Of a stretch of 34,785 nucleotides of DNA, positions 11,716-34,785 are shown in pieces. The stretch comes from a virus. The notes beneath the pieces were generated by a model. That model worked only from the letters and a program-made list of their open reading frames with translations, had not been told where the DNA came from and did not search any database. Within the stretch, counting starts at the first letter, position 1. Each line of letters opens with the position of its first letter. The stretch lies in the IMG/VR virus record IMGVR_UViG_3300032322_002510, positions 1-34,785 of that record; one strand, given 5' to 3'. A program made the position numbers and the translations under genes.

Positions 11716-12765
11716 ATGTCATTTAAAAGATTTACCCCGGAAGATTTTTTAATCTCAGCAGAATCAATAACTGCTCCTTGTTGGACAAATAATACTTATA
11801 ATTTAACTACATTTTTTACTAGCTCAACCCAAGAAACTAGTTTACAGGGGGATTATGTATTAGCAGTATACAATACTGCTTCTAATATTACTAATACTGC
11901 GGTTCAATTTTATATTGGGTACGCTAATAAATTAGGTTCAGGATCGGTAGCTTACAATTCAGGAATACCACAATATTCTCCTTCAAGCACATTATATGGT
12001 CAATATAGAAATCTAGTTCTTGAAGACGAAAATGCTAATTTCTTATTTGGGGCAGTTACCCAATCTGATTTCTTTATTTTATCTGTAGAAAGAGCTAATT
12101 ATAAACAGTCTCTATTTCCTGGTTCTTTAAATTTAAGAATTCAAAGTGGAAGTACTGCAAATTATCTGTCTATAACAGATAACAGTAACGATGTTACTAC
12201 AGTTCCCTATATTAATGGGATGAGAGTATATCAGTTAGTATCAGGATCTAACGGCCGATCTGTTTCTACTTTAACGGGAGGATCAACAGTTGCTGGTCAA
12301 ACTATATCTGGTTCTTATGGGTGGTTCTTACCTGATGTTGGAACTATACTATTAAATGCTCAAGCTTTAGCTTTGCCTTTTAATAGTGGGGGTGTTGCTT
12401 TGAGTTATAGTGGTTCTTTTGGAACCCAAGCTAATGTTAGTAATGGGTATAATAATACTCGTTTATTTACCCAAATTTCAGGGGGTGCTAGTTTTCAGCT
12501 AAATTCTCAAGAAAATATTACTTCAGATTTTGTGTTTGTAAGACCACAAAACGCTGAGTTTAATTATACAACTAATCCTTCATTTATAAGTGGTTCAACT
12601 GGAGATGTATTATATCCTAGTTTTATAAATAATCCACAAACATATATTACAACTGTAGGGTTATATAACGATGCTAATGAGTTATTAGCGGTAGCTAAAT
12701 TATCAAGACCTTTAGTTAAAGACTTTACTAAAGAAGCATTAATTCGAGTTAAGTTAGATTTCTAA
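11716..12765 (+). CDS. Tail structural protein, paralogue A
   Basis: A 349-residue protein starting MSFKRFTPEDFLISAESITA. The body is beta-rich with strongly conserved-looking segments (YGQYRNLVLEDENANFLFG; SVERANYKQSLFPGSLNLRI). The C-terminal about 65 residues (SEFN-like AEFNYTTNPSFISGSTGDVL; ITTVGLYNDANELLAVAKLS; ending RVKLDF) match the end of the next protein. The module TTVGLYx(D/E)xxxLLA(V/I)xKL(S/A)xPL is shared by both. The arrangement suggests gene duplication with divergence of the N-terminal parts. From memory this type is common next to baseplate genes in T4-like environmental phages. Its exact place in the virion is unknown. Confidence 0.6.
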   Translation: MSFKRFTPEDFLISAESITAPCWTNNTYNLTTFFTSSTQETSLQGDYVLAVYNTASNITNTAVQFYIGYANKLGSGSVAYNSGIPQYSPSSTLYGQYRNLVLEDENANFLFGAVTQSDFFILSVERANYKQSLFPGSLNLRIQSGSTANYLSITDNSNDVTTVPYINGMRVYQLVSGSNGRSVSTLTGGSTVAGQTISGSYGWFLPDVGTILLNAQALALPFNSGGVALSYSGSFGTQANVSNGYNNTRLFTQISGGASFQLNSQENITSDFVFVRPQNAEFNYTTNPSFISGSTGDVLYPSFINNPQTYITTVGLYNDANELLAVAKLSRPLVKDFTKEALIRVKLDF

Positions 12766-12768
12766 TGA

Positions 12769-13764
12769 ATGGGGCCATACAAACAATTTTTAGCGTCAGA
12801 TATAATTGTAACTCCGTTTACAGTTAATAAAAGTTTTTCTTTCCCATACAGCCAATTTGCAACTGGGTCTGATGGGCAATTAGTAGGCATTGATAGATTT
12901 ATAGGACAAAGTGGAAGTTGGGATTTCTCAAATCTTAATAATAACCCAACTACAGGCACACTATCTACCCAGTACCAGGTTTTAGTATATAATTCTATAA
13001 AACAATTATATTATTCTAATTTTTTAACATCAAATACAGGAGATATTGTATTTCAACCTGATGTAATTATAGGGAGTAATCCAAGTGGAGATGTTTTAGT
13101 AGGTGAGGTTAATAGTCCCATATACGATAACTTTTTACAAAGTACTTTAGTACCTGATAGAAGTTGGTCTACAGGGTCTATAGGAGTTATTTCGATTCCT
13201 TCTAAAATATATGGGGAATATATAGTACCTAATAGTTTTAAATATAGTACCCCCACTTTAGATGGTACTTTAATATATGACGATGGGCAAGGTAATTTAA
13301 TTATTTCTTCTAGTGTATATGGTATAGTAGGAAAAGGTAATATAATTTATACTCATGGCTTGGCCATATTAACTAATAATTCGTTAATGGGTGATTTAGG
13401 GTATAGTGTAGATGAATATGTTACATCATATGTAACTGATGTTACTTGTTCTTTTTCTTCATCTTATACTATATATGAAACTCAGTATAAGTGTACTATA
13501 AGAGAAAGTGAATTTAATGCCACTTTAAACCCATCTGCCCAATTAACCGGATCAATTACTTTTTATAGCAGTAGCCAATTTTATGAACCAGGATTTGGGG
13601 GTCAATTAGCAAATAATGTAACAGGTTCTTATTTTACCCCATATGTTACAACAGTAGGACTATACGATGAAGATCAAAATCTATTAGCAATAGGGAAACT
13701 CGCTCAACCTCTCCCAACCTCAGCAACAACAGATACAACAATATTAGTAAACATAGATAGATAA
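12769..13764 (+). CDS. Tail structural protein, paralogue B
   Basis: A 331-residue protein three bases downstream of paralogue A. Its C-terminus (residues about 245-331: SEFNATLNPSAQ.., YVTTVGLYDEDQNLLAIGKL, AQPL, ending ILVNIDR) aligns with the end of paralogue A, while the N-terminal portion differs (FLASDIIVTPFTVNKSFSFP; SQFATGSDGQLVGIDRFIG). Short Cys-containing stretches (DVTCSFSSSYTIYETQYKCT) are unlike the other tail proteins. The gene directly abuts the following GIY-YIG-like gene with no gap (stop TAA then ATG). It is probably the last structural gene of the tail unit. Confidence 0.55.
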   Translation: MGPYKQFLASDIIVTPFTVNKSFSFPYSQFATGSDGQLVGIDRFIGQSGSWDFSNLNNNPTTGTLSTQYQVLVYNSIKQLYYSNFLTSNTGDIVFQPDVIIGSNPSGDVLVGEVNSPIYDNFLQSTLVPDRSWSTGSIGVISIPSKIYGEYIVPNSFKYSTPTLDGTLIYDDGQGNLIISSSVYGIVGKGNIIYTHGLAILTNNSLMGDLGYSVDEYVTSYVTDVTCSFSSSYTIYETQYKCTIRESEFNATLNPSAQLTGSITFYSSSQFYEPGFGGQLANNVTGSYFTPYVTTVGLYDEDQNLLAIGKLAQPLPTSATTDTTILVNIDR

Positions 13765-14208
13765 ATGTGGTTATACAACAATAAAGTTATAGAAACATTA
13801 GACGATTTCCCTACCGGTATTTACGGGTTTATATACATAACTACTCATATACCAAGCGGAATGTCGTATATTGGTAAGAAAGTGTTATTTCACAATATAA
13901 AACGTAAATTAACACGAAAAGAACTTGCTGAACACCAGGGTGCAGGGCGCAAACCAACCCACCAAATAGTCCAAAAAGAAAGCGATTGGAAGACATATTA
14001 TGGTTCCGCTAAGCCTATTTTAGAAATGCTAAAAGGAGGGAAACACAGTGAATTTAAACGCGAGATACTAGAACTGGTGTATAGTAAGAAATTATTAACA
14101 TACTACGAGTGCAAATACTTATTTAAGTATGGTGTACTAGAAAACCCTGATGTCTATTTTAACGATAATATCTTAGGAAAATTTTATAGAAAAGACTTTG
14201 TATCTTGA
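13765..14208 (+). CDS. GIY-YIG-like endonuclease
   Basis: A 147-residue protein. Near residues 19-42 it has the two core strands of the GIY-YIG fold (GIYGFIYITTHI .. MSYIGKK). A basic segment follows (NIKRKLTRKELAEHQ) and then SDWKTYYGS near residue 75. A candidate catalytic Glu lies in LLTYYECKYLFKY near residue 120. From memory, very similar short proteins (MWLYN..GFVY.ITN..YIGKK) are widespread in T4-like phages and are annotated as putative endonucleases. It lacks the DNA-binding modules of the larger homing enzymes downstream, so it may be a fixed repair or recombination nuclease. It abuts the last tail gene and ends before a candidate promoter. Confidence 0.6.
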   Translation: MWLYNNKVIETLDDFPTGIYGFIYITTHIPSGMSYIGKKVLFHNIKRKLTRKELAEHQGAGRKPTHQIVQKESDWKTYYGSAKPILEMLKGGKHSEFKREILELVYSKKLLTYYECKYLFKYGVLENPDVYFNDNILGKFYRKDFVS

Positions 14209-14219
14209 TTTTTTTTCAT

Positions 14220-14229
14220 ATATTTATAA
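14220..14229 (+). promoter_or_regulatory. Candidate promoter motif ATATTTATAA
   Basis: Exact copy of the recurrent motif, inside TTTTTTCATATATTTATAAC, a context shared with the copy at 18106. It lies 18 bases before the ATG of the gene at 14248 and after the end of the GIY-YIG-like gene. A TTTG lies about 20 bases upstream, which fits the Bacteroidota TTTG/TAnnTTTG promoter layout loosely. Confidence 0.5.
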
Positions 14230-14247
14230 CAAAAAAAAATTACCAAA

Positions 14248-14619
14248 ATGAAAGACATAATCAGAATGCAACAATTGGCTGGTATTATTACTGAAAATAA
14301 AGCCAGAAAAATGATGAAAATTTTAAATGAAAATATGGGATCAACAGATTCTGTAAAACTTTTCGATTTCCCCCAAGACATTAATGATGTCGATTCTTAT
14401 GAAGAAATGGGATTTAAAGTTGAAATCGACGACGAAACTAATGAAACTTATTATGCCAGTTTGTCATTTAAAGGACACGATTGGATGGCTGTTCTTTCAA
14501 TATTAGATGATTGTGAAAACTATAATTTACGTCCTAATTTAGAATATGATGGAAAAGTTTATAATTTTGATGAAGCACATGAATTAGTAGATTCTAAAGC
14601 CGCTGGTGAAAATATTTAA
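14248..14619 (+). CDS. CTS-tagged small acidic protein
   Basis: A 123-residue protein that begins MKDIIRMQQLAGIITENKAR. The RMQxLAGxIxE(N) core is shared with the start of the gene at 16354 and with the C-terminus of the gene at 21813, and has a gp21-like site IITE-N at residues 13-17. A second similar site (ILNEN) follows at about residue 29. The remaining 90 residues are acidic and look like a small compact alpha/beta domain (DVDSYEEMGFKVEIDDETNE; HDWMAVLSILDDCENY). No known family. It is monocistronic: candidate promoter upstream, strong terminator (14623-14651) immediately downstream. Proposed head-packaged protein; the mature function is unknown. Confidence 0.55.
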   Translation: MKDIIRMQQLAGIITENKARKMMKILNENMGSTDSVKLFDFPQDINDVDSYEEMGFKVEIDDETNETYYASLSFKGHDWMAVLSILDDCENYNLRPNLEYDGKVYNFDEAHELVDSKAAGENI

Positions 14620-18127: not shown

Positions 18128-18889
18128 GTGATCAAACTGCTAACTCTCTTAAAAGAAGCTATAAATAAGCCTAAAGCTATATTTTTAGCAGGACCTGCTG
18201 GTTCTGGAAAGTCTACAATAGCAAAACAACTTTTGCCGTCTGATATCCCGGTTGTAAACATTGACGACACATACGAACAAATGTTAAAAGATGCAGGGAT
18301 AGGAATGGATGTGAAAAATTTTACCCCTGATCAACTTTCCCAAGCCGCCAAATTAATGGCGTCTGCAAGGAAAGTTACAGATGAAAAATACCAAGAACTA
18401 CTTAAAAATCTTAATAATATAATAATAGACGGGACAGCCGGGGCATCAAATCCAATCCGCAAAAAAAAAGAACAACTCGAAGCACTGGGGTACGATACAA
18501 TGATGTTAATGCTGTATGTTTCACCTATAACTTCTTTAGAACGCAACCAATCGCGAGAGCGCAGTTTACTTCCTAGTATTGTATTACGTACTTGGAGAGA
18601 TGTAAACTCAAATATAGACACATATAGAGATATGTTTGGAGAAGATAAATTTATTTTAATAAATAATGATCCTTCAGACGCCGAAACACAATTCGATCCT
18701 AAAGAGATAAAAAAACGATTTTTTGACACTTCAACCGCTAAAGGCAAACCTAAAACACCAGAAGAACAAGCCAAATCAAACGCTGAAGCGGCAAAATTAA
18801 ACCAAGATATACAACAAATGGTAGATACACTACCTCAGTTTGATGACTTATCAACAGCTAAAACTAAAATTAAACAATTTTTATCATGA
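18128..18889 (+). CDS. CTS-tagged P-loop kinase (zeta-toxin/AAA_33-like)
   Basis: A 253-residue protein with a GTG start chosen because MIKLLTLLKEA is the same tag as in the genes at 27494 and 27808. The site LKE-A (residues 8-11) fits a T4 gp21-type cleavage, leaving a mature enzyme that begins about 10 residues before the Walker A motif GPAGSGKS (22-29). NIDDTYEQ near residue 46 and NIIIDGTAG near 99 fit the acidic and Walker B positions of zeta-toxin/polynucleotide-kinase-like enzymes. RNQSRERSLLPSIVLRTW near 140-157 supplies Arg/lid residues. The last 50 residues are a helical Lys/Ala-rich extension. Substrate unknown (nucleotide sugar, nucleic acid end or small molecule). It overlaps the next tagged gene by ATGA. 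Confidence 0.7.
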   Translation: MIKLLTLLKEAINKPKAIFLAGPAGSGKSTIAKQLLPSDIPVVNIDDTYEQMLKDAGIGMDVKNFTPDQLSQAAKLMASARKVTDEKYQELLKNLNNIIIDGTAGASNPIRKKKEQLEALGYDTMMLMLYVSPITSLERNQSRERSLLPSIVLRTWRDVNSNIDTYRDMFGEDKFILINNDPSDAETQFDPKEIKKRFFDTSTAKGKPKTPEEQAKSNAEAAKLNQDIQQMVDTLPQFDDLSTAKTKIKQFLS

Positions 18890-21812: not shown

Positions 21813-22544
21813 ATGAAAAAATCAGACCTTAAAGAATTAATTCGTAAAAATATTATTCAAGAGTTAGAATCACAAGACGATGATGCGGCTTTAGGTAATA
21901 TGTACTCTCCTTTATATGAAAAGAAAAAAGATGAAGAAGAGGATATAGAAATTACAGCAGACGAAGAAACTGAAGAACCAGAAGTTGATATGGATAGTAC
22001 TGGAGATCCTGCTTTATCTGATGCCGACCAAGAATATTTAAATACTTTAGAAACATTAAAAAACAAAGCTAAAGAAATGGGCGACGAAAAACTTGAAAAC
22101 CAAATAGATAATACTATTACTTATTTTACACGCCAACACGTTGTTAAAGAAGGGGATACAGATTACGCTCGAGCTAAAGACGCTAAACGTTTAGGTAAAA
22201 AAGGTGAAGAAAATATTTACGGAGCAGGAGTAAAAAAAGGTGAAAGACTCGAAAAAGAAAAATTACAAGAACTAGACATGGAATCATTAAATAGAATGGA
22301 TGAACTAGTTAACCAAAATAATCTTAGAATGCTTGTAACCGCTGCTCAAGGTATTATCAAAGACTTAGAAGAATTTGAAGATGATGACATTTTTGACTTT
22401 ATTGTAAGCAAAATTAAAGAATTAGATATGCCCGCTCCCAGCCCCATAAGACCTGTAAATAGGCATAGCTGGAGAGATGATAAGCGTATCTGGAGAGAAA
22501 ATTATGAAATGCGTCGTTTACAAAGAATAGCAGGTTTAATTTAA
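21813..22544 (+). CDS. CTS-tagged acidic protein with C-terminal RLQRIAG motif
   Basis: A 243-residue protein starting MKKSDLKELIRKNIIQELES. Residues 30-75 are extremely acidic (KKKDEEEDIEITADEETEEP) and probably disordered, which is reminiscent of scaffold or core proteins. A central region has YARAKDAKRLGKKGEENIYG near residue 110. The C-terminus ends NYEMRRLQRIAGLI, which mirrors the N-terminal RMQQLAGII / RRMQKLAG motif of the genes at 14248 and 16354, so this protein carries tag-like elements at both ends. It is first in a run of six genes with mostly zero or overlapping spacing. An internal scaffold or core role is possible; no enzyme motif is seen. Confidence 0.5.
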   Translation: MKKSDLKELIRKNIIQELESQDDDAALGNMYSPLYEKKKDEEEDIEITADEETEEPEVDMDSTGDPALSDADQEYLNTLETLKNKAKEMGDEKLENQIDNTITYFTRQHVVKEGDTDYARAKDAKRLGKKGEENIYGAGVKKGERLEKEKLQELDMESLNRMDELVNQNNLRMLVTAAQGIIKDLEEFEDDDIFDFIVSKIKELDMPAPSPIRPVNRHSWRDDKRIWRENYEMRRLQRIAGLI

Positions 22545-26669: not shown

Positions 26670-27497
26670 ATGAAACTTACCGACATACTCAAGCAAATAA
26701 TCCAAGAAAAAAAAGCCAAACGCGACAGGTGCTTGCGTATTGCAGACCGCAAATTTAACAAGCCATCAGCATATAAATCAGGTGCTGTAGTTAGATGCCG
26801 CCAAGGTAAAATATGGAAAGGATTAAAAGAAGAAAATTTAAACGAATCCAAACAAGTAGGCCCGTTATATCATTTTACAGATTTTTTTTCTCTCAAAAAG
26901 ATTTTAACTAGTAATACTATGATTGGATCCTATGGCAATCAAGATATAAAAGGTCGATATATATCGACAACACGTGATAAAAATTTTTATAAATCTGATC
27001 CTAACCTTGGCGTTGAGAATCTGCAAGCCGCTTTAATATTTGATGGAAATAAATTAAGTAATAAATATAAAATTAAACCATATGCTTATGAACCATATAG
27101 AGACCTTGATCGAAGTGGTGCCGAAGCAGAAGAACTAATCATACTTCCAGGCAGAGATTTACCTAATATTAAATCATACTTATCAGGTGTAATATTATTA
27201 AAGCCTAATAAAGCAATAGAATCTTTCCTAAAAAAAGAAAATATACCTTATAATGTAGATTTAAGCGAAGCTAAAAAAGAAACACTCCGCACTTGGTTCA
27301 AACGCAAAGGAGCACCAGGTAAAACAGGCGGGTGGGTTGACTGTAATTCACCTATCCGCAAAGACGGAAAAATAACAGGATACAAACCTTGTGGAAGACA
27401 AAAAGGCGAAGAACGAGCTAAATATCCTTCGTGTCGCCCAACCGCAGCAAGGTGTAAGGATAAAGGTAAAGGAACTAAATGGGGTAAAACAAAATGA
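26670..27497 (+). CDS. CTS-tagged ADP-ribosyltransferase-like protein with flanking Cys-rich modules
   Basis: A 275-residue protein. The tag MKLTDILKQIIQE (IIQE-K) is followed by a basic Cys module (RDRCLRIADRKFNKPSAYKS, then GAVVRCRQGKIWKGLKEE). Residues about 65-185 look ART-like: LYHFTDFFSLKKILTSN (the H strand), RYISTTRDKNFY (S-T-T) and GAEAEELIIL (E-x-E), in the right order. The last 70 residues (KRKGAPGKTGGWVDCNSPIR, then CGRQKGEERAKYPSCRPTAA) are a second Cys/basic module of DUF5872 type. T4 Alt is also a head-packaged ADP-ribosyltransferase, so the analogy is direct. The ART call is inference from three motifs. Coupled by ATGA to the next gene. Confidence 0.5.
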   Translation: MKLTDILKQIIQEKKAKRDRCLRIADRKFNKPSAYKSGAVVRCRQGKIWKGLKEENLNESKQVGPLYHFTDFFSLKKILTSNTMIGSYGNQDIKGRYISTTRDKNFYKSDPNLGVENLQAALIFDGNKLSNKYKIKPYAYEPYRDLDRSGAEAEELIILPGRDLPNIKSYLSGVILLKPNKAIESFLKKENIPYNVDLSEAKKETLRTWFKRKGAPGKTGGWVDCNSPIRKDGKITGYKPCGRQKGEERAKYPSCRPTAARCKDKGKGTKWGKTK

Positions 27498-27811
27498 TCA
27501 AACTACTCAATCTACTAACCGAAGCTAAAGAAAGCTTTGAAACATTTGCTAAAAACCGTTTAGCAGGTGCCGAAAAAATTATAGCCAACGCTAAGAAAAA
27601 AGGTGGAGATGCATTACTAACATACACTCACTTTAATGTAAAGCCATCTTATTACAAAAAAGCCATAAACGGCAAATTTGACAAAGAAGCCGCTAAAAAA
27701 GAATTTGAAGAAACATATAAAAAAATCTCATTAAACATGACCCAAACCGAATTTCAACGTGAAGTTGGACGTTTAGAGGTATTAGGCGAACTATTAATAA
27801 GAGAAAAATGA
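27494..27811 (+). CDS. CTS-tagged small helical protein
   Basis: A 105-residue protein starting MIKLLNLLTEAKES, almost the same tag as the kinase at 18128 (MIKLLTLLKEA), with LTE-A as predicted cleavage site (residues 8-11). The mature part would be about 95 residues, very Lys/Ala/Glu-rich and helical (FAKNRLAGAEKIIANAKKKG; DKEAAKKEFEETYKKISLNM), the composition expected of a small basic internal head protein. No known family. It overlaps both neighbours by ATGA and so is produced with the ART-like and the Cys-rich proteins. Confidence 0.55.
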   Translation: MIKLLNLLTEAKESFETFAKNRLAGAEKIIANAKKKGGDALLTYTHFNVKPSYYKKAINGKFDKEAAKKEFEETYKKISLNMTQTEFQREVGRLEVLGELLIREK

Positions 27812-28233
27812 TAAAACTAATCAACATACTAAATGAAGCTGAACTAAACCAATGCCCAGCTCCAACCCAAAACATTGAACTCAACCTTCAAAATAGGCAA
27901 AAGGCTATCAACGAATACGGCTATGGCCCGTTGAACCCAAACCAACCCAACGAAAAATTTTGGCAAGCCAAAGCAGATATGTGGAAGCTTGATTCTATAG
28001 AAGAAGCTAAATCATCTCGTTGTGGTAATTGTGCTGCTTTTGACATTACATCTAAAACATTAGATTGTATTGCTAAAGGGATAGGCGACGATGAAGGCAC
28101 AGAAGATCCGTTTGATGTTATTAAAGCTGGAAAACTTGGGTATTGTAGATTTTTAAAATTTAAATGTGCCGCAGCTAGAACCTGCGACGCTTGGGTTGTA
28201 GGAGGTCCTATTACAGATGATAAAGCCGTATAA
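27808..28233 (+). CDS. CTS-tagged Cys-rich protein, possible metal or Fe-S binder
   Basis: A 141-residue protein. The tag MIKLINILNEAELNQ has LNE-A (residues 8-11). The mature part contains NQCPAP, then from about residue 70 RCGNCAAFD, LDCIAKGIG, GYCRFLKFKC and RTCDAWVVGGP, eight Cys in all. The spacing CxxC..C..C..C..C with an adjacent GYC and CDAW recalls high-potential iron-sulphur or other metal-binding folds. From memory, near relatives with NLxNRQxAIxxYGYGPxNP occur in marine phages. The 3' end overlaps by 17 bases the relic of the cupin-like gene that begins at 28217. Function unknown. Confidence 0.6.
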   Translation: MIKLINILNEAELNQCPAPTQNIELNLQNRQKAINEYGYGPLNPNQPNEKFWQAKADMWKLDSIEEAKSSRCGNCAAFDITSKTLDCIAKGIGDDEGTEDPFDVIKAGKLGYCRFLKFKCAAARTCDAWVVGGPITDDKAV

Positions 28234-29306: not shown

Positions 29307-29335
29307 CGTATATTAACATGTTAAAAATTTCAAAT

Positions 29336-29851
29336 ATGAATAAAAAAATTGTAATAGTAGGAGCAGGAGTAGCAGGCATAAACGCTGCTACCAAACTCGT
29401 TGATAATGGTTACCCGGGTGAATTGATTACAATTATTGATATGGGTAAAGACCCGTATCAACGCAAGCCTGAAGAGGTAATGACAGGTATGCTAGGTGCT
29501 GGAGGGTGGAGTGATGGCAAATTAACATACCACACAGCAATTGGAGGTCAATTGTCTAAATATTGCGGTGAAGACAAAGCAATGGAATTGATGGATCAAG
29601 TAATTACCAATTTCAAACGTTTCCACCCAAAACCAGAAGAAGTACAATGTTCAAATCCTGTTGAGGAACCTGAATTTATTAAACCATACTTTGGTTTACG
29701 TTTATTCCCAGTATGGCACGTAGGTACAGATTATTTATCTGAAATTGCTAAAAATTGGTATGATTATTTAGTAGAGAAAGGTGTTAATTTCGAATGGGAA
29801 ACTAAAGTAACAGATATTGATTTTGAAACAGGAGAAGTAATAATAGAATAA
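29336..29851 (+). CDS. FAD-dependent oxidoreductase, N-terminal half of a split gene
   Basis: 171 residues from ATG 29336 (MNKKIVIVGAGVAGINAATK); an upstream ATG at 29318 is possible but adds only MLKISN. The start is a classic dinucleotide-binding Rossmann motif GAGVAG (residues 9-14). It is followed by ITIIDMGKDPYQRKP and TGMLGAGGWSDGKLT as in COG2509-type FAD-dependent dehydrogenases. The protein stops at DIDFETGEVIIE, just where such enzymes continue with a second strand and the conserved GTGKAG loop. That continuation is found at 30990, beyond two inserted genes. The two halves together (171 + 261 residues) equal one normal-sized enzyme. Whether they assemble is unknown. Confidence 0.8.
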   Translation: MNKKIVIVGAGVAGINAATKLVDNGYPGELITIIDMGKDPYQRKPEEVMTGMLGAGGWSDGKLTYHTAIGGQLSKYCGEDKAMELMDQVITNFKRFHPKPEEVQCSNPVEEPEFIKPYFGLRLFPVWHVGTDYLSEIAKNWYDYLVEKGVNFEWETKVTDIDFETGEVIIE

Positions 29852-29861
29852 AACACATAAC

Positions 29862-30305
29862 ATGACAACAAAATATTTTTTTGATTTTAATAATTTAAAA
29901 ATTTTAGGAGGTTTTAAAAACAGAGTTCATTTACTAGGTATAAAAGAGACATATGATGAAACACTAATGCCTGAATTAAAAGTAGGAGTATCATATAATA
30001 TGGGCGATTTTCCTGAAAGCGAAATGGAGGAGTGTATTTTATCAATAGATAGAAAACTTTTTCATAAAATGTTAAATAAATGGTTAGATGAAAAATTAGA
30101 TTATTGTAACCGCTGGAACCATTATTGTGGTGTAGGTGGATTTATTTATGGTAAAAATGTAAAAAAAGAATATGATACTTACATTTATGAATATATTGGT
30201 GTTGAAGATAATGAAACAAACGATGGCTTAGAAGAAGTTAAAAAAGATATGGTTGTTTACACTGTAGATTCTTTTGATGAATTAATTGATATGGAACATG
30301 GATAA
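29862..30305 (+). CDS. Hypothetical protein inside the split oxidoreductase
   Basis: A 147-residue protein of unknown family (MTTKYFFDFNNLKILGGFKN). It has several aromatic residues and three Cys (EECILS, DYCNRW, HYCGVGG), with an acidic C-terminus (DNETNDGLEEVKKDMVVYTV). It lies between the N-terminal half of the oxidoreductase and the second GIY-YIG gene, whose ATG it overlaps by eight bases. It is probably carried by the homing element as a passenger, or is a pre-existing neighbour. No nuclease motif is visible. Confidence 0.45.
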   Translation: MTTKYFFDFNNLKILGGFKNRVHLLGIKETYDETLMPELKVGVSYNMGDFPESEMEECILSIDRKLFHKMLNKWLDEKLDYCNRWNHYCGVGGFIYGKNVKKEYDTYIYEYIGVEDNETNDGLEEVKKDMVVYTVDSFDELIDMEHG

Positions 30306-30993
30306 TAAATTCATAGTATACACTCATATTCGCCCTGATACAAATGAACCATTTTATGTTGGGAAAGGAGTACCTGGAAGAGAAATTAGAACATGCGGTA
30401 GAAATCAATATTGGCATAACATTGTAAATAAAAATAATGGCATATTTGAATCTAAAATATTATTTGAAGGATTAAATGAGGGTGAAGCACTACTAAAAGA
30501 ACGAGAAATAGAATTGGATTTAAAAAATAAAGGTTATATATTAACTAATATAATAGAATGTGGTGTTAAAGCTGGTACTACCGGAATGAAACACTCTGAA
30601 GAATCCAAACAAAAGATGAGTAACGGTTTAAAACAATATTACAATGAAAATCCTAACCCTAAAAAAGGTATTAAGATGAGTAAGGAAAGTTGTGAAAAAA
30701 AGAGTAAATCTATGTTAGGTAAAAAAGTTAAATTAGGTATAAAAGAATCTGATGAAACTAGAAAAAAGAAAAGTGATGCTTTTAAAGGAAGAATATATAG
30801 TGAAGAAAGTAAACAAAAGAAAAATGAAAAATTAAAAGATAAAAACATTTATGTCTTTTATAATTTATTAAATGATGAAAAGTTTAAAGGAACTAGGAGA
30901 GAATTTCAAGATAAATTTGATTTAAACAGTGGAAGGTTAAGCCATTTAATAAATAATAAAATTTCTAAATATAAAAATTGGATAAAAATATGA
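30298..30993 (+). CDS. GIY-YIG homing endonuclease splitting the oxidoreductase
   Basis: A 231-residue protein from ATG 30298 (MDNKFIVYTHIRPDTNEPFY); an in-frame TTG at 30286 is less likely. Residues 1-85 form the GIY-YIG domain (VYTHIRPDTNEPFYVGKG, GRNQYWHNIVNKNNG, GEALLKEREIE). Several NUMOD3-type repeats follow (KHSEESKQKMSNGLKQYY; SDETRKKKSDAFKGRIYSEE). The C-terminus (IYVFYNLLNDEKFKGTRREF .. GRLSHLINNKISKYKNWI) is a NUMOD1-like helix-turn-helix. The N-terminal domain is nearly the same as in the gene at 28301, with very different tails. The stop overlaps the ATG of the C-terminal oxidoreductase half (ATGA), so translation of that half may be coupled to the endonuclease. Confidence 0.82.
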   Translation: MDNKFIVYTHIRPDTNEPFYVGKGVPGREIRTCGRNQYWHNIVNKNNGIFESKILFEGLNEGEALLKEREIELDLKNKGYILTNIIECGVKAGTTGMKHSEESKQKMSNGLKQYYNENPNPKKGIKMSKESCEKKSKSMLGKKVKLGIKESDETRKKKSDAFKGRIYSEESKQKKNEKLKDKNIYVFYNLLNDEKFKGTRREFQDKFDLNSGRLSHLINNKISKYKNWIKI

Positions 30994-31775
30994 AAAAAAT
31001 TAAATTTGATACATGCATAGTAGGCACAGGTAAAGCAGGAATAGACTTCTCAGCTAAATTAGCTCAAAAGTACAATTTACCTACCGAAGTCAAGTCAACC
31101 CAGATTGGAGTGAGATTTGAAAGCCCACAACACCATTTCCAAAAACTAATCGATATTTCATATGATTTCAAACTTTATAGAAAATTTGAAGATAAAGGCG
31201 TTTCGCTTCGCTCTTTTTGTACAAACAATAATGCGGCATATGTTGCCGTAGAAGAAACATACGGCGACCACAGCTACAACGGCCACGCTAAAAAAGATGA
31301 AGCATATAGAAACAATATGACTAATTTTGGCATATTAATGGAAATTAATGGTATTAAAGATCCGTTTGAATGGTCACGTAAATTAGTTTCCAAAGTACAA
31401 TCTCATGGTACTGGTTTATATTATAGCCCATCTCGTAAACCATCAATTACTTCAGAAGGAAATGAAGTCTCGGCTCACCAAATCGATTGGATGGGATTAC
31501 AATTAGTATTAGAATATTTTCAAGGATACTTTAGATATATTACAGATTTCATTGAAGACATGAAAAAAGTATTTCCAACATTAGGAGATGATTGGGGAAT
31601 ATACATTCCCGAGGTAAAATATTTAAGCCCAGAGCCTCTTGTAAACTACAACGATTTATCCTTAACAAAATATCCGAATGTACACTTTGTTGGCGACGCT
31701 CTTTCAGCAAGGGGTATAACTGTTAGTGGAGCTCACGGTATTTATGTGGCTTCTTCGATTTTACAAAGTTCTTAA
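30990..31775 (+). CDS. FAD-dependent oxidoreductase, C-terminal half of a split gene
   Basis: 261 residues from ATG 30990 (MKKIKFDTCIVGTGKAGIDF); the longer TTG start at 30978 is unlikely. It begins with the strand and GTGKAG loop that follows the N-terminal half in intact relatives. It continues with QIGVRFESPQHHFQKLIDIS and a Cys-containing FCTNNNAAYVAVEE. It ends with NVHFVGDALSARGITVSGAH, then GIYVASSI, the FAD-contacting GD motif of the fold. It lacks its own nucleotide-binding N-terminus, so it must pair with the product of 29336 to be active. It is followed by a promoter motif and the HNH gene. Confidence 0.8.
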   Translation: MKKIKFDTCIVGTGKAGIDFSAKLAQKYNLPTEVKSTQIGVRFESPQHHFQKLIDISYDFKLYRKFEDKGVSLRSFCTNNNAAYVAVEETYGDHSYNGHAKKDEAYRNNMTNFGILMEINGIKDPFEWSRKLVSKVQSHGTGLYYSPSRKPSITSEGNEVSAHQIDWMGLQLVLEYFQGYFRYITDFIEDMKKVFPTLGDDWGIYIPEVKYLSPEPLVNYNDLSLTKYPNVHFVGDALSARGITVSGAHGIYVASSILQSS

Positions 31776-31785
31776 ATATTTATAA
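31776..31785 (+). promoter_or_regulatory. Candidate promoter motif ATATTTATAA inside a start-codon hairpin
   Basis: Exact motif copy immediately after the oxidoreductase stop. Its 3' part forms the 5' arm of the hairpin 31778-31809. Initiation about seven bases downstream would yield a transcript lacking that arm. Confidence 0.55.
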
Positions 31786-31809
31786 TCGAACAAAAACTCG
31801 ATTATGAAT
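31778..31809 (+). promoter_or_regulatory. Hairpin covering the start codon of the HNH endonuclease
   Basis: The core is an 8-bp perfect stem ATAATCGA / TCGATTAT with loop ACAAAAAC. It extends to 12 pairs (one G-U) through the whole ATG at 31804-31806. Read-through RNA from the oxidoreductase would fold and hide the start codon. This matches the logic known for T4 homing endonuclease genes. Confidence 0.6.
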
Positions 31810-32751
31810 TACCAAAGAATATACAACCAAATAGTTGAACGTGCCCAGAATAGAACTTTAGATGGTTATAAAGAAAAACACCATATAATCCCAAAATGTA
31901 TTGGTGGGAATAATGATAAAGAAAATATAGTAAAATTAACAGCAAAGGAACATTTTTTATGTCATATATTACTTTGTGAAATTTATCCTAAAAATATAAA
32001 ATTATATCAAGCTTTATGGTTAATGTCTACTAACAAAAATAAAAAAAAAGGGAAAAGATATAAAGTATCATCTAGAGTTTATGAAAGAATTAAAATAGAA
32101 GCTTCTAAAATATACAAAAATCGAACACAAACTAAAGAAGAAAAACAAAAAAGAGTTAATTCTCAAATTTTAACTTGGGATAAAAAACGCAAAGAACAAG
32201 GTTTAATAATTAATAAAAATTATATTTTTGATTTTATAAAATCATACCCCAATATTAAATTGACTGAAAATAATAAACATTGTATAAACTATTGTTATAA
32301 TGATAATATTAATATTAAAAACATTATTTGTTTGTGTGGTAATGGAATAAAAAGGTTTCAAAACTATACTCAAGGTTATAAACAATATTGTAGTCAAAGA
32401 TGTGCTAATTTATATAATAAAGAAAAATCTTTGCAAACTAAAGAAAATAATGGTTTATGGGATAATTCTAAAGAAAGATTACGTAAAAAAGAAATAGAAA
32501 ATTTATCTAAAATAGAAATTGAACAACTTAGAAGAAAACGAATTAGTGATAAACAAAAAGGCAAAACTAAATTAGGAAACAGTCATAGTAAACCCATTAT
32601 ACAATTCGATACCCAAGAAAATCTTATCCAAGAGTGGCCAAGCATTAGGCAAGCTGGTTTCAGTTTAGTAGGGAATCAAGGTGAACCTATTAGAAAATGT
32701 CTTAAAGGTTTACAAAAAACAGCTTATGGGTACAAATGGAAATATAAATAA
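31804..32751 (+). CDS. HNH homing endonuclease
   Basis: A 315-residue protein. The HNH nuclease core is at residues 24-58 (KEKHHIIPKCIGGNNDKENI, then VKLTAKEHFLCHILL: the HH, N and H positions). A Cys4-type zinc element lies near residues 175-205 (IICLCGNGIK .. YKQYCSQRCANLYN). The C-terminal about 55 residues (PIIQFDTQENLIQEWPSIRQ .. LKGLQKTAYGYKWKYK) are a NUMOD1/IENR1 DNA-binding module like that of the gene at 28301. It is free-standing, between the end of the oxidoreductase and a small hypothetical gene. Expression is probably limited to transcripts from its own promoter because of the hairpin over its ATG. Confidence 0.85.
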   Translation: MNYQRIYNQIVERAQNRTLDGYKEKHHIIPKCIGGNNDKENIVKLTAKEHFLCHILLCEIYPKNIKLYQALWLMSTNKNKKKGKRYKVSSRVYERIKIEASKIYKNRTQTKEEKQKRVNSQILTWDKKRKEQGLIINKNYIFDFIKSYPNIKLTENNKHCINYCYNDNINIKNIICLCGNGIKRFQNYTQGYKQYCSQRCANLYNKEKSLQTKENNGLWDNSKERLRKKEIENLSKIEIEQLRRKRISDKQKGKTKLGNSHSKPIIQFDTQENLIQEWPSIRQAGFSLVGNQGEPIRKCLKGLQKTAYGYKWKYK

Positions 32752-32800
32752 AACTTGGTTTTTTAAACTTTCTTTTTTACATTTATATTAAAATAATAAT

Positions 32801-33043
32801 ATGGAAAAATGGGAACCAACTAAAAAACTCACTAAAACAGACGGAACAATAATGTACGTATGGGACAGTAAATTACACAACTGGGAAGGGCCAGCACTAA
32901 TACCCGAAGGTAATATGCGAAAAAGAGAATATTATCTTTATGGAAATAAAAAAACAGAAGAACAATGGAAAGAAGCTCGTAAAGATAGGGAAGGTCTTCC
33001 TTGGTATAAAAAAACCTCAATTACAGGAACCAGTAGATATTAG
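32801..33043 (+). CDS. Small conserved phage protein
   Basis: An 80-residue protein (MEKWEPTKKLTKTDGTIMYV; LHNWEGPALIPEGNMRKREY, then YLYGNKKTEEQWKEARKDRE). The pattern W-x-GPA-x-IPxGNxxxxEYYxxGxxxxxEEW is one I remember from short phage hypotheticals; it resembles a MORN-like strand pair. No catalytic motif. It stands alone between the HNH gene and the tag-cassette genes, with a weak promoter-like ACATTTATAT at 32779. It may be a regulatory or host-interaction protein; function unknown. Confidence 0.5.
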   Translation: MEKWEPTKKLTKTDGTIMYVWDSKLHNWEGPALIPEGNMRKREYYLYGNKKTEEQWKEARKDREGLPWYKKTSITGTSRY

Positions 33044-33060
33044 TTTTTATTTTTTTTTGT

Positions 33061-33070
33061 ATATGTATAA
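33061..33070 (+). promoter_or_regulatory. Candidate promoter motif (ATATGTATAA variant)
   Basis: Nine of ten match to ATATTTATAA, preceded by a T-rich run and followed by the A-rich leader of the gene at 33099. The leader CAAACAAAAA-type sequence is repeated before the gene at 33405 and again at 33903. Confidence 0.45.
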
Positions 33071-33098
33071 CAAACAAAAACATTCAAATTTTAAAAAT

Positions 33099-33338
33099 AT
33101 GAAAGTATCACAATTAAGACAACTAATTAGAGAAGAAATTAGAGGAGTATTGAATGAAAAAATTATTAATGATAATCATTTCTTAAATGAAATGGTAATT
33201 AACGATTTTATGTCATATAAGGATTTTGCCCTCTCCGTAGCTAAATATTTGATGAAAAACTATGAACGCAGTGATTATGATAGTTTTATGAGGGTTTTAA
33301 GCTTAAAACTTAAAGGTTATAAAGACGATTATATTTAA
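33099..33338 (+). CDS. CTS-tagged small protein (copy 1 of duplicated tag)
   Basis: 79 residues from ATG 33099, chosen because MKVSQLRQLIREEIRGVLNE is the tag shared with the next gene. A longer in-frame start at 32940 would overlap the previous gene without any sign of use. LNE-K at residues 18-21 is the predicted processing site, leaving about 59 residues. The mature part is helical and polar with a hydrophobic centre (INDFMSYKDFALSVAKYLMK; YDSFMRVLSLKLKGYKDDYI). No family recognised. It is followed by a hairpin without T-run (33348-33372) and the second tagged gene. Confidence 0.6.
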   Translation: MKVSQLRQLIREEIRGVLNEKIINDNHFLNEMVINDFMSYKDFALSVAKYLMKNYERSDYDSFMRVLSLKLKGYKDDYI

Positions 33339-33347
33339 AGACACTTA

Positions 33348-33372
33348 GGTTTTAAGATCTCATTTTAGAACC
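33348..33372 (+). other. Intergenic stem-loop without T-run
   Basis: A 10-bp stem (GGTTTTAAGA / TTTTAGAACC, two G-U pairs) with loop TCTCA, between the two tag-cassette genes and directly before the repeated leader. No poly-T follows, so it may be an attenuator, an mRNA stabiliser or a processing site. Confidence 0.4.
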
Positions 33373-33404
33373 ATAAACAAACAAAAATATTTAAATTTTA
33401 AAAC

Positions 33405-33902
33405 ATGAAAGCATCACAATTAAGACAACTAATTAGAGAAGAGATTAGAGGAGTATTGAATGAAAACCTAACTAATGAAGATGCTACTCTTATTAAAAAG
33501 AATTCTCCATTCGGAAATGAAAAACCTTTACAAGTGGGTGATTTAATTATGTGGGATGAAATAGGTCGTGGGGGGATGGGCCGGACATTAATAGGGAGAA
33601 AAATAGGTAAAGTAGTAAAAATATTAGGATCAGCTAATTTACAAGCTGAAGAAATCAAAACCGGAGATTTACATACAGTTTCTCGTAGAGAATTAACTAA
33701 GGTTCCTGGTGTAGGGGATAAAATAGAAGCAACTTTAGATTATAATTACGGGGCAGGAAGCGGCTCTCAAGGATCTAGTAGAATTTCAGGTACAGTTAAA
33801 AAAATAAATTTAGAAGGTATGACCCTAATGCTCCAACCAGAAAATTCAGACAAAACTTTCAAAGTAAGCATGACTGATTTACAAAATTTAAAAATTTATT
33901 AA
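33405..33902 (+). CDS. CTS-tagged protein with SH3-like beta-barrel (copy 2 of duplicated tag)
   Basis: 165 residues. The tag MKASQLRQLIREEIRGVLNE is followed by N, giving LNE-N. The mature part begins with polar residues and then GDLIMWDEIGRGGMGRTLIG .. KIGKVVKILG. Later come VGDKIEATLDYNYGAG and ISGTVKKINLEGMTLMLQPE. These are short strands with Gly turns as in tandem SH3-like or KOW-like barrels. No catalytic motif. Its tag DNA is nearly the same as that of the gene at 33099 while the rest is unrelated. A truncated third leader copy and a terminator follow. Confidence 0.6.
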   Translation: MKASQLRQLIREEIRGVLNENLTNEDATLIKKNSPFGNEKPLQVGDLIMWDEIGRGGMGRTLIGRKIGKVVKILGSANLQAEEIKTGDLHTVSRRELTKVPGVGDKIEATLDYNYGAGSGSQGSSRISGTVKKINLEGMTLMLQPENSDKTFKVSMTDLQNLKIY

Positions 33903-33922
33903 ATAAACAAACAAAAATATTT
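33903..33922 (+). repeat. Orphan third copy of the tag-gene leader
   Basis: Twenty bases (ATAAACAAACAAAAATATTT) identical to 33373-33392, the leader of the gene at 33405. Here it is followed directly by terminator 33930-33957 and not by a gene. This looks like the scar of a lost cassette or one recombination endpoint. Confidence 0.7.
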
Positions 33923-33929
33923 TAAAGTT

Positions 33930-33957
33930 AAGCTTGGGAAACCAAGCTTTCTTTTTT
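33930..33957 (+). terminator. Rho-independent terminator, repeat of the one at 14623
   Basis: Stem AAGCTTGG / CCAAGCTT, GAAA loop, T-rich tail. A 29-base core is the same as that of the terminator after the gene at 14248, about 19 kb away. Confidence 0.85.
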
Positions 33958-33999
33958 ACATTCACGCAAATAAAACAATATAGTTATGAAAATAGGCTT

Positions 34000-34048
34000 A
34001 TGTTGTTTTTCCTATTTTTTATAATATTTATGATAGATAAAACAACAT
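34000..34048 (+). promoter_or_regulatory. Inverted repeat over the start codon with a promoter motif in the loop
   Basis: ATGTTGTTTT at 34000-34009 is perfectly complementary to AAAACAACAT at 34039-34048, which includes the first two bases of the ATG at 34047. The 29-base loop holds ATATTTATGA (34024-34033), a nine of ten match to the candidate promoter. RNA started in the loop would lack the 5' arm. Confidence 0.55.
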
Positions 34049-34785
34049 GCCTGCTAAATTAACTCAACAAGATTTTATAAATAAAGCTAATAAAAAACAT
34101 AATAACTTTTATGATTATTCATTAGTTAATTATGTAAATGCTGTTACTAAAGTAACAATTATATGCTCTAAACATGGGGGGTTTGAACAACAACCTAATA
34201 ATCATTTATATGGTCAACGTTGTATTAAATGTATGGGAGATAATGTTAGAAAAGCAAGAATATCTAATACTAACGATTTTATTAAAAAATCAAAAGAAAT
34301 CCATGGGGAAAAATATGATTACTCTTTGGTAAATTATAAAACAGGAAAAGATAAAGTAATAATTATATGTTCTACTCATGGTGAGTTCTTACAAACACCC
34401 TTTGCTCATTCAAGCCCCTCAATGAAACAAGGGTGTCCTTTTTGTAAAATATCAAAAGGAGAAGATGAAATTGAAAGGTTTTTAATAAAAAATAATATAG
34501 AATATATTAGAGAATATAAGTTTAAAGATTGTATAAACCCCAAAACAAATAAAAAACTCCCTTTTGACTTTTACCTCCCTCAGATAAATACTATAATAGA
34601 ATACCAAGGAGAACAACATTATAAAAAAACGGGATATTTTGAAAGTAGAGGAGGAGGGTTAAAAGATTTACAATACAGAGATAAAATTAAAAAAGAATTT
34701 GGGATTTTAAATAATTTTAATTATATTGAAATATCATATAAGCAATTTGAACAAATAAAAACAATTTTAAAAAATAAAATATGCG
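34047..34785 (+). CDS. Vsr/DUF723-type endonuclease, partial at right edge
   Basis: 246 codons from ATG 34047 (MPAKLTQQDFINKANKKHNN), open at the window end. Two treble-clef-like DUF723 repeats are visible: YDYSLVNYVNAVTKVTIICS..HGGFEQQPNNH..CIKC and YDYSLVNYKTGKDKVIIICS..HGEFLQTP..GCPFC. A nuclease domain follows (GEDEIERFLIKNNIEYIREY, then LPFDFYLPQINTIIEYQGEQ, HYKK). It has the E..D-x-Y/F-L..E-Y-x-GxQHY pattern of Vsr-like/EDxHD homing enzymes of the restriction-endonuclease fold. It is probably another free-standing homing endonuclease. Its start codon lies in a hairpin arm. Confidence 0.75.
   Translation, partial: MPAKLTQQDFINKANKKHNNFYDYSLVNYVNAVTKVTIICSKHGGFEQQPNNHLYGQRCIKCMGDNVRKARISNTNDFIKKSKEIHGEKYDYSLVNYKTGKDKVIIICSTHGEFLQTPFAHSSPSMKQGCPFCKISKGEDEIERFLIKNNIEYIREYKFKDCINPKTNKKLPFDFYLPQINTIIEYQGEQHYKKTGYFESRGGGLKDLQYRDKIKKEFGILNNFNYIEISYKQFEQIKTILKNKIC

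Follow-up and report, generated by a model that had tools for sequence, protein, structure and literature searches.

How could two neighbouring small genes of a phage come to share a leader and the beginning of their proteins, yet have nothing in common behind it? The question is raised by a 34,785-base stretch of viral DNA, the IMG/VR fragment IMGVR_UViG_3300032322_002510, which was analysed over its whole length (hereafter the window) and stops short of the head genes. The nearest annotated phages are Flavobacterium phage immuto and Microcystis phage Mel-JY01, to which the window's baseplate gene is 48% and 45% identical, and the gene order after the tail genes is immuto-like, running from a primase, an exonuclease and a NadR-like gene to small tagged proteins. 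The host of the window phage is likely a member of Bacteroidota.

The two genes (33099-33338, 79 aa; 33405-33902, 165 aa) sit in a direct repeat, 33043-33172 and 33349-33478, in which their leaders and tags are 78% identical over 130 bases, and both proteins start with the common tag MK[V/A]SQLRQLIREEIRGVLNE. The leaders, at 33066-33098 (copy 1, the left border, nearly identical in a sister contig that appears here as both G001 and L116) and 33373-33404 (copy 2), belong to repeat family D2 and, like all borders, tags, cargo bodies and flanking genes of the locus, lie on the plus strand. The tag of the first gene, MKVSQLRQLIREEIRGVLNE (33099-33158), is predicted to be capsid-targeting and ends in L-N-E, an instance of the L/I-x-E motif; that of the second gene, MKASQLRQLIREEIRGVLNE (33405-33464), agrees with it in 58 of the first 60 coding bases, with GTA/GCA at codon 3 and GAA/GAG at codon 13 as the only differences. 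A sequence-only reading had described a near-identical leader plus 66 coding bases with two differences; the repeat is real, but the 66 bases hold five.

A third leader copy (33903-33929), which has no start codon, begins at the base that directly follows the second gene's stop codon. Its 20 bases at 33903-33922 repeat the 20-mer at 33373-33392 exactly, where chance would give only 0.11 sites with up to three mismatches in the window, and over 29 bases copies 1 and 3 are 83% and 90% identical to copy 2, respectively. As had been noted, no gene follows, and the copy runs into an intrinsic terminator, the eight-pair hairpin AAGCTTGGGAAACCAAGCTT with a T run (33930-33949), which is kept in occupied and empty versions of the locus. 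Searches with two strict leader patterns gave matches at already known loci only, and the exact leader 21-mer was found in four other viral contigs (L011-L014), in which an ORF scan detected no adjoining tagged gene.

Behind the tags, the cargo bodies (cargo A, 33159-33338, 59 aa; cargo B, 33465-33902, 145 aa) gave no BLASTP alignment with each other at E ≤ 100, in keeping with the earlier statement that the proteins differ wholly past the tag, and full-length homology between the genes at 33099 and 33405 was not found. No relatives of the cargo A body were found, and the similarity of cargo A to its matches lies in the tag, with little past it; cargo B has no relatives among viral contigs, annotated phages and bacterial genomes. 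Neither has a significant Pfam or PHROG family, and P0002 had no match among phage records even at E 10. Single-sequence AlphaFold prediction failed for cargo B (pLDDT 43, uninformative); its model of cargo A is all-helical and weak (pLDDT 69).

The surroundings of the two genes are conserved. To the left lies an untagged 80-aa anchor gene (32801-33043), which has 444 relatives in IMG/VR and is 83-98% identical in L008 and L018-L036; the next conserved gene in close relatives encodes an AAA_28 P-loop protein, whose first codons align to G001 at 33986-34005 of the window. Among 21 contigs with both flanks, the window included, the space between them is empty in eight, occupied by one cargo gene in ten and by two in three, so that the segment loss between repeats predicted beforehand is matched by a cassette count ranging from 0 to 2. 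The cargo bodies found in this slot fall into at least 11 families with no BLASTP link between them, one of which (L025, L116) lies behind an anchor copy whose next gene is an endonuclease gene instead of AAA_28, and a comparison of 26 cargo bodies yielded 21 unlinked groups. All Pfam and PHROG matches of the cargos are weak, except for DUF4116 repeats in L008. The tags are of two types, A (MKxSQLRQLIxEE) and B (MKQILSEEFRRMQKLAG). Since most of the more distant relatives have both flanking genes adjacent, or separated by untagged genes, the empty slot is probably the ancestral state.

The junction between leader copy 3 and the terminator, AAACAAACAAAAATATTTTAAAGTTAAGC, also occurs in L018, L008, L006 and L100, where it stands behind three different sequences, besides the window's own. 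Because four other contigs share it in this way, leader copy 3 is best understood as a conserved border that closes the slot on the right. It had been called an orphan leader; its existence holds, and it is to be read as this border and not just as what a single lost gene left behind.

Two genes of this region are interrupted. In the window, AAA_28 runs for some seven codons before an inserted ORF (34047 onward, within 33986-34785) breaks it, which encodes a DUF723-like and probably homing endonuclease; the gene is intact in G001/L116 (176 aa) and other relatives. At 29318-31775, two ORFs, one of 147 aa and one for a NUMOD3 (GIY-YIG-like) endonuclease, divide a FAD-dependent oxidoreductase-like gene that is unbroken in L115 (456 aa). 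Around the inserted endonucleases, Rfam detected neither introns nor riboswitches. L116 carries the anchor gene twice at 12041-14548, a separate tagged cargo accompanies each copy, an HNH-type endonuclease ORF lies between the two, and the window retains the HNH-type endonuclease and one anchor copy of this arrangement.

How cargo could enter and leave the slot is visible in closely related contigs. G001 matches window positions 31663-33158 at 98.2% identity, the similarity ends at the end of the cargo A tag, and it restarts at leader copy 3 (33903-34003, 98.0%), with unlike cargo of 744 bases in the window versus 182 in G001 between the matched flanks. Within the tag, the first 30 bases match together with the nearly identical leader, and 10 differences fall in the last 30; the crossover zone is narrow, and this second half of the tag travels with the cargo. 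Other cargo behind the same tag, which the sequence-only reading had proposed to look for, is thus present in sister contigs, and the swaps at leader and tag support its idea of a tag that spreads as a module, the packaging of such cargo being a separate step to which we return below.

Tandem duplication of one gene followed by fast divergence behind the tag could account for the 78% identity of leader and tag over 130 bases. It is nevertheless very improbable, given cargo bodies that do not align, a similarity that breaks sharply at the tag in a sister that is otherwise 98% identical, and unrelated cargo families that share one slot.

Gain and replacement leave their own traces. L008 corresponds to G001 plus one cassette, a 705-base unit with a 71-base leader/tag duplicated on both sides. 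L006 holds a new 63-aa cargo followed by about 60 out-of-frame bases from the 3' end of the cargo family of L003/L018, the 3' scrap of the replaced cargo and a replacement scar. The window, too, has what is probably the leftover 3' end of a former cargo, GATCTCATTTTAGAACC at 33356-33372, between cargo A and leader copy 2; it matches over 14 bases the old-cargo 3' end that stands before the right border in L006, a match reached by 6 of 20,000 shuffles, and this is suggestive of a slot that formerly held L003/L018-family cargo here too. From the aligned contigs, then, a slot, exchange of cargo with definable borders, gain or loss of cassettes and a replacement scar are all evident.

The same repeats might instead be selected only as expression signals, the leader serving translation or transcription, with the exchange of cargo being ordinary illegitimate mosaicism. 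The leader is A-rich and immediately precedes the start codon, a placement that fits translation initiation in Bacteroidota, and homing endonucleases crowd the region and could alone drive exchange. However, the borders lie within the leader and tag and at a leader copy that has no gene, and L008 and G001 differ by exactly one repeat-bounded unit, which leaves this explanation quite unlikely. A further concern is that the compared contigs are metagenome assemblies, in which false joins are possible at short repeats, and the repeats here are of 60-90 bases in mixed-strain metagenomes. Against an artefact of short reads joined at repeats, several alleles occur in more than one contig (L019/L024, L027/L029/L032, L034/L035), and each allele retains lineage-specific differences in its flanks; the two-cargo allele of the window was met a single time. 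An assembly origin of the pattern is extremely improbable.

Tags and cargos are also found at other loci. DUF4116-repeat cargo stands behind tag A both in the L008 slot and in a tagged tandem array of another lineage (L004/L005/L007), the L018 cargo family recurs at a different site in L003, and L105 carries a tag near-identical to that of the window (KEEIRGVLNEN) behind a gene that, on our own reading of its sequence, we take to be ribonucleotide-reductase-like. The tandem arrays of L004/L005/L007 run to five or six tagged genes, and those searched had no S77, S78 or Gp23 match.

The nature of the tag is suggested by its sequence and by the genes that accompany it. An N-terminal tag common to otherwise unrelated proteins, 19 of A-type and nine of B-type, is what would be expected of a capsid-targeting sequence (CTS). 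L/I-x-E ends 18 of the 19 A-type and eight of the nine B-type tags (26/28, uncorrected for the shared ancestry of the tags), compared with 5-6% in equal stretches of cargo bodies. Near the N-terminus, the motif occurs in 15 of 22 late-region genes of the window and in one of 10 tail genes, against about 22% of body windows. Peptidase S77 was detected above the curated cut-off in G001, G002, G003, G005, G007 and Flavobacterium phage immuto, and Gp23 was matched in G002 and G007; for the window itself, which ends before the head genes, the S77 protease is predicted from these sister contigs. In sister contigs, the N-termini of scaffold, protease and capsid proteins are comparable to the tags, as are those of head-region proteins of immuto. 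The motif and the sister-contig protease gene are thus both evident from the sequences, and packaging into the head would be in line with them and with the T4 parallels discussed below.

Other tag-like sequences were noticed in the window. Ten-residue tags (MIKLLTLLKE|A, MIKLLNLLTE|A and MIKLINILNE|A, at 18128-18889 and 27494-28233) have a T4-like length and cut site, the first of them on a zeta-toxin-like P-loop kinase (Pfam, 4e-12), and the protein at 21813-22544 carries a tag-B-like motif (RRLQRIAGLI) at its C-terminus, perhaps a targeting or cleavage signal there.

A tag that is a true exchange module could also serve something other than the capsid, as a localisation helix for the membrane, RNA polymerase or tail, or as an N-terminal stabiliser. 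This would be consistent with a tagged tandem array in the 135-kb contig G006 (= L005), in which no S77, S78 or Gp23 match was detected, though G006 may be only a fragment. The gp21-type motif at the end of nearly all tags, the protease gene in sister genomes and the comparable N-termini of scaffold, protease and capsid proteins in the same phages argue for capsid targeting, and we regard the non-capsid alternatives as unlikely.

Taking these observations together, we consider it highly probable that the locus is a slot for head-packaged, injected proteins, in which the capsid-targeting tag and the leader form a recombination module that swaps cargo. Each cassette has three parts: a leader rich in A, a tag that forms roughly the first 20 residues of the protein, and a cargo that varies. 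Most likely a capsid-targeting sequence, the tag would take the protein into the prohead core, where a T4-type (S77) prohead protease would remove it after the terminal L/I-x-E, and the freed cargo would go into the host along with the DNA; we infer cleavage, injection and a role of the cargo in host takeover or anti-defence. Leader and tag would, in addition, provide the DNA homology for exchange, with crossovers in the leader or the 5' half of the tag and in the leader-like right border ahead of the terminator, and such crossovers could swap, insert or remove cargo and leave the flanking genes untouched.

This kind of locus is already known from T-even phages (the T4 family, in E. coli), whose internal-protein loci are polymorphic. 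Repoila et al. (1994) reportedly found that T-even internal-protein genes vary in number, order and identity and share a leader motif, and are said to have proposed homologous flanking sequences as mediators of shuffling. In the present slot, too, tagged genes vary in number and identity between fixed flanks. T4 internal proteins enter the prohead core guided by their tag, are trimmed and are injected (PMC12373910), with N-terminal CTSs of 10-19 residues directing them into the head and gp21 cleaving after L/I-X-E (PMC9026906). The slot resembles the T-even ipI and ipII/ipIII loci in its short non-essential genes with diverse cargo and only the N-terminal packaging tag in common (PMC9026906, PMC3012670, PMC12373910), and in L/I-x-E cleavage by a gp21-type protease, represented here by the motif and the sister-contig gene. 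It differs from those loci in that its tags, of about 20 aa, exceed the 10-aa T4 tag in length and were not linked to it, that one slot takes two tags unrelated to each other (A and B), that the flanks are an A-rich leader and a start-less copy of it as right border, and that the phages are Immutovirus-like; Pfam, PHROG and phage records revealed neither homology of cargo or tag to T4 Ip proteins nor a T-even genome. T4 Ip1-Ip3, whose homology is confined to the packaging leader, block different GmrSD enzymes (PMC12373910), and the slot shares with such anti-defence hotspots small variable genes within conserved flanks, a likeness of gene arrangement alongside which the activity of the cargo is putative. 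T4 also loses and amplifies segments, ipIII included, by recombination between short homologies (PMC9391042), whereas the homology here is the functional leader/tag itself. What is new is the lineage, the two unrelated interchangeable tags, the start-less leader border and the view, down to single bases, of cargo being gained, lost and replaced; our literature search found no paper on such an arrangement outside T-even and giant phages.

Tentatively, and with well under even confidence, it may be suggested that outside T-even phages the packaging tag itself is the recombination handle, in that leader and tag at the left and the start-less leader at the right allow any incoming tagged gene to be captured, swapped or dropped, with tags interchangeable at one locus and circulating between loci and lineages, and that phages probably of Bacteroidota would thereby hold a tag-searchable pool of injected anti-defence proteins. 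The contigs display the exchange at base level, in common flanks, altered cargo, a duplicated cassette and residual scrap. Injected phage proteins act ahead of any phage gene expression, and those of T4 counter restriction enzymes in this way. Should phages distant from T4 use such an arrangement as well, their tag would offer a direct sequence handle for injected, probably anti-defence, proteins that are without recognisable homology.
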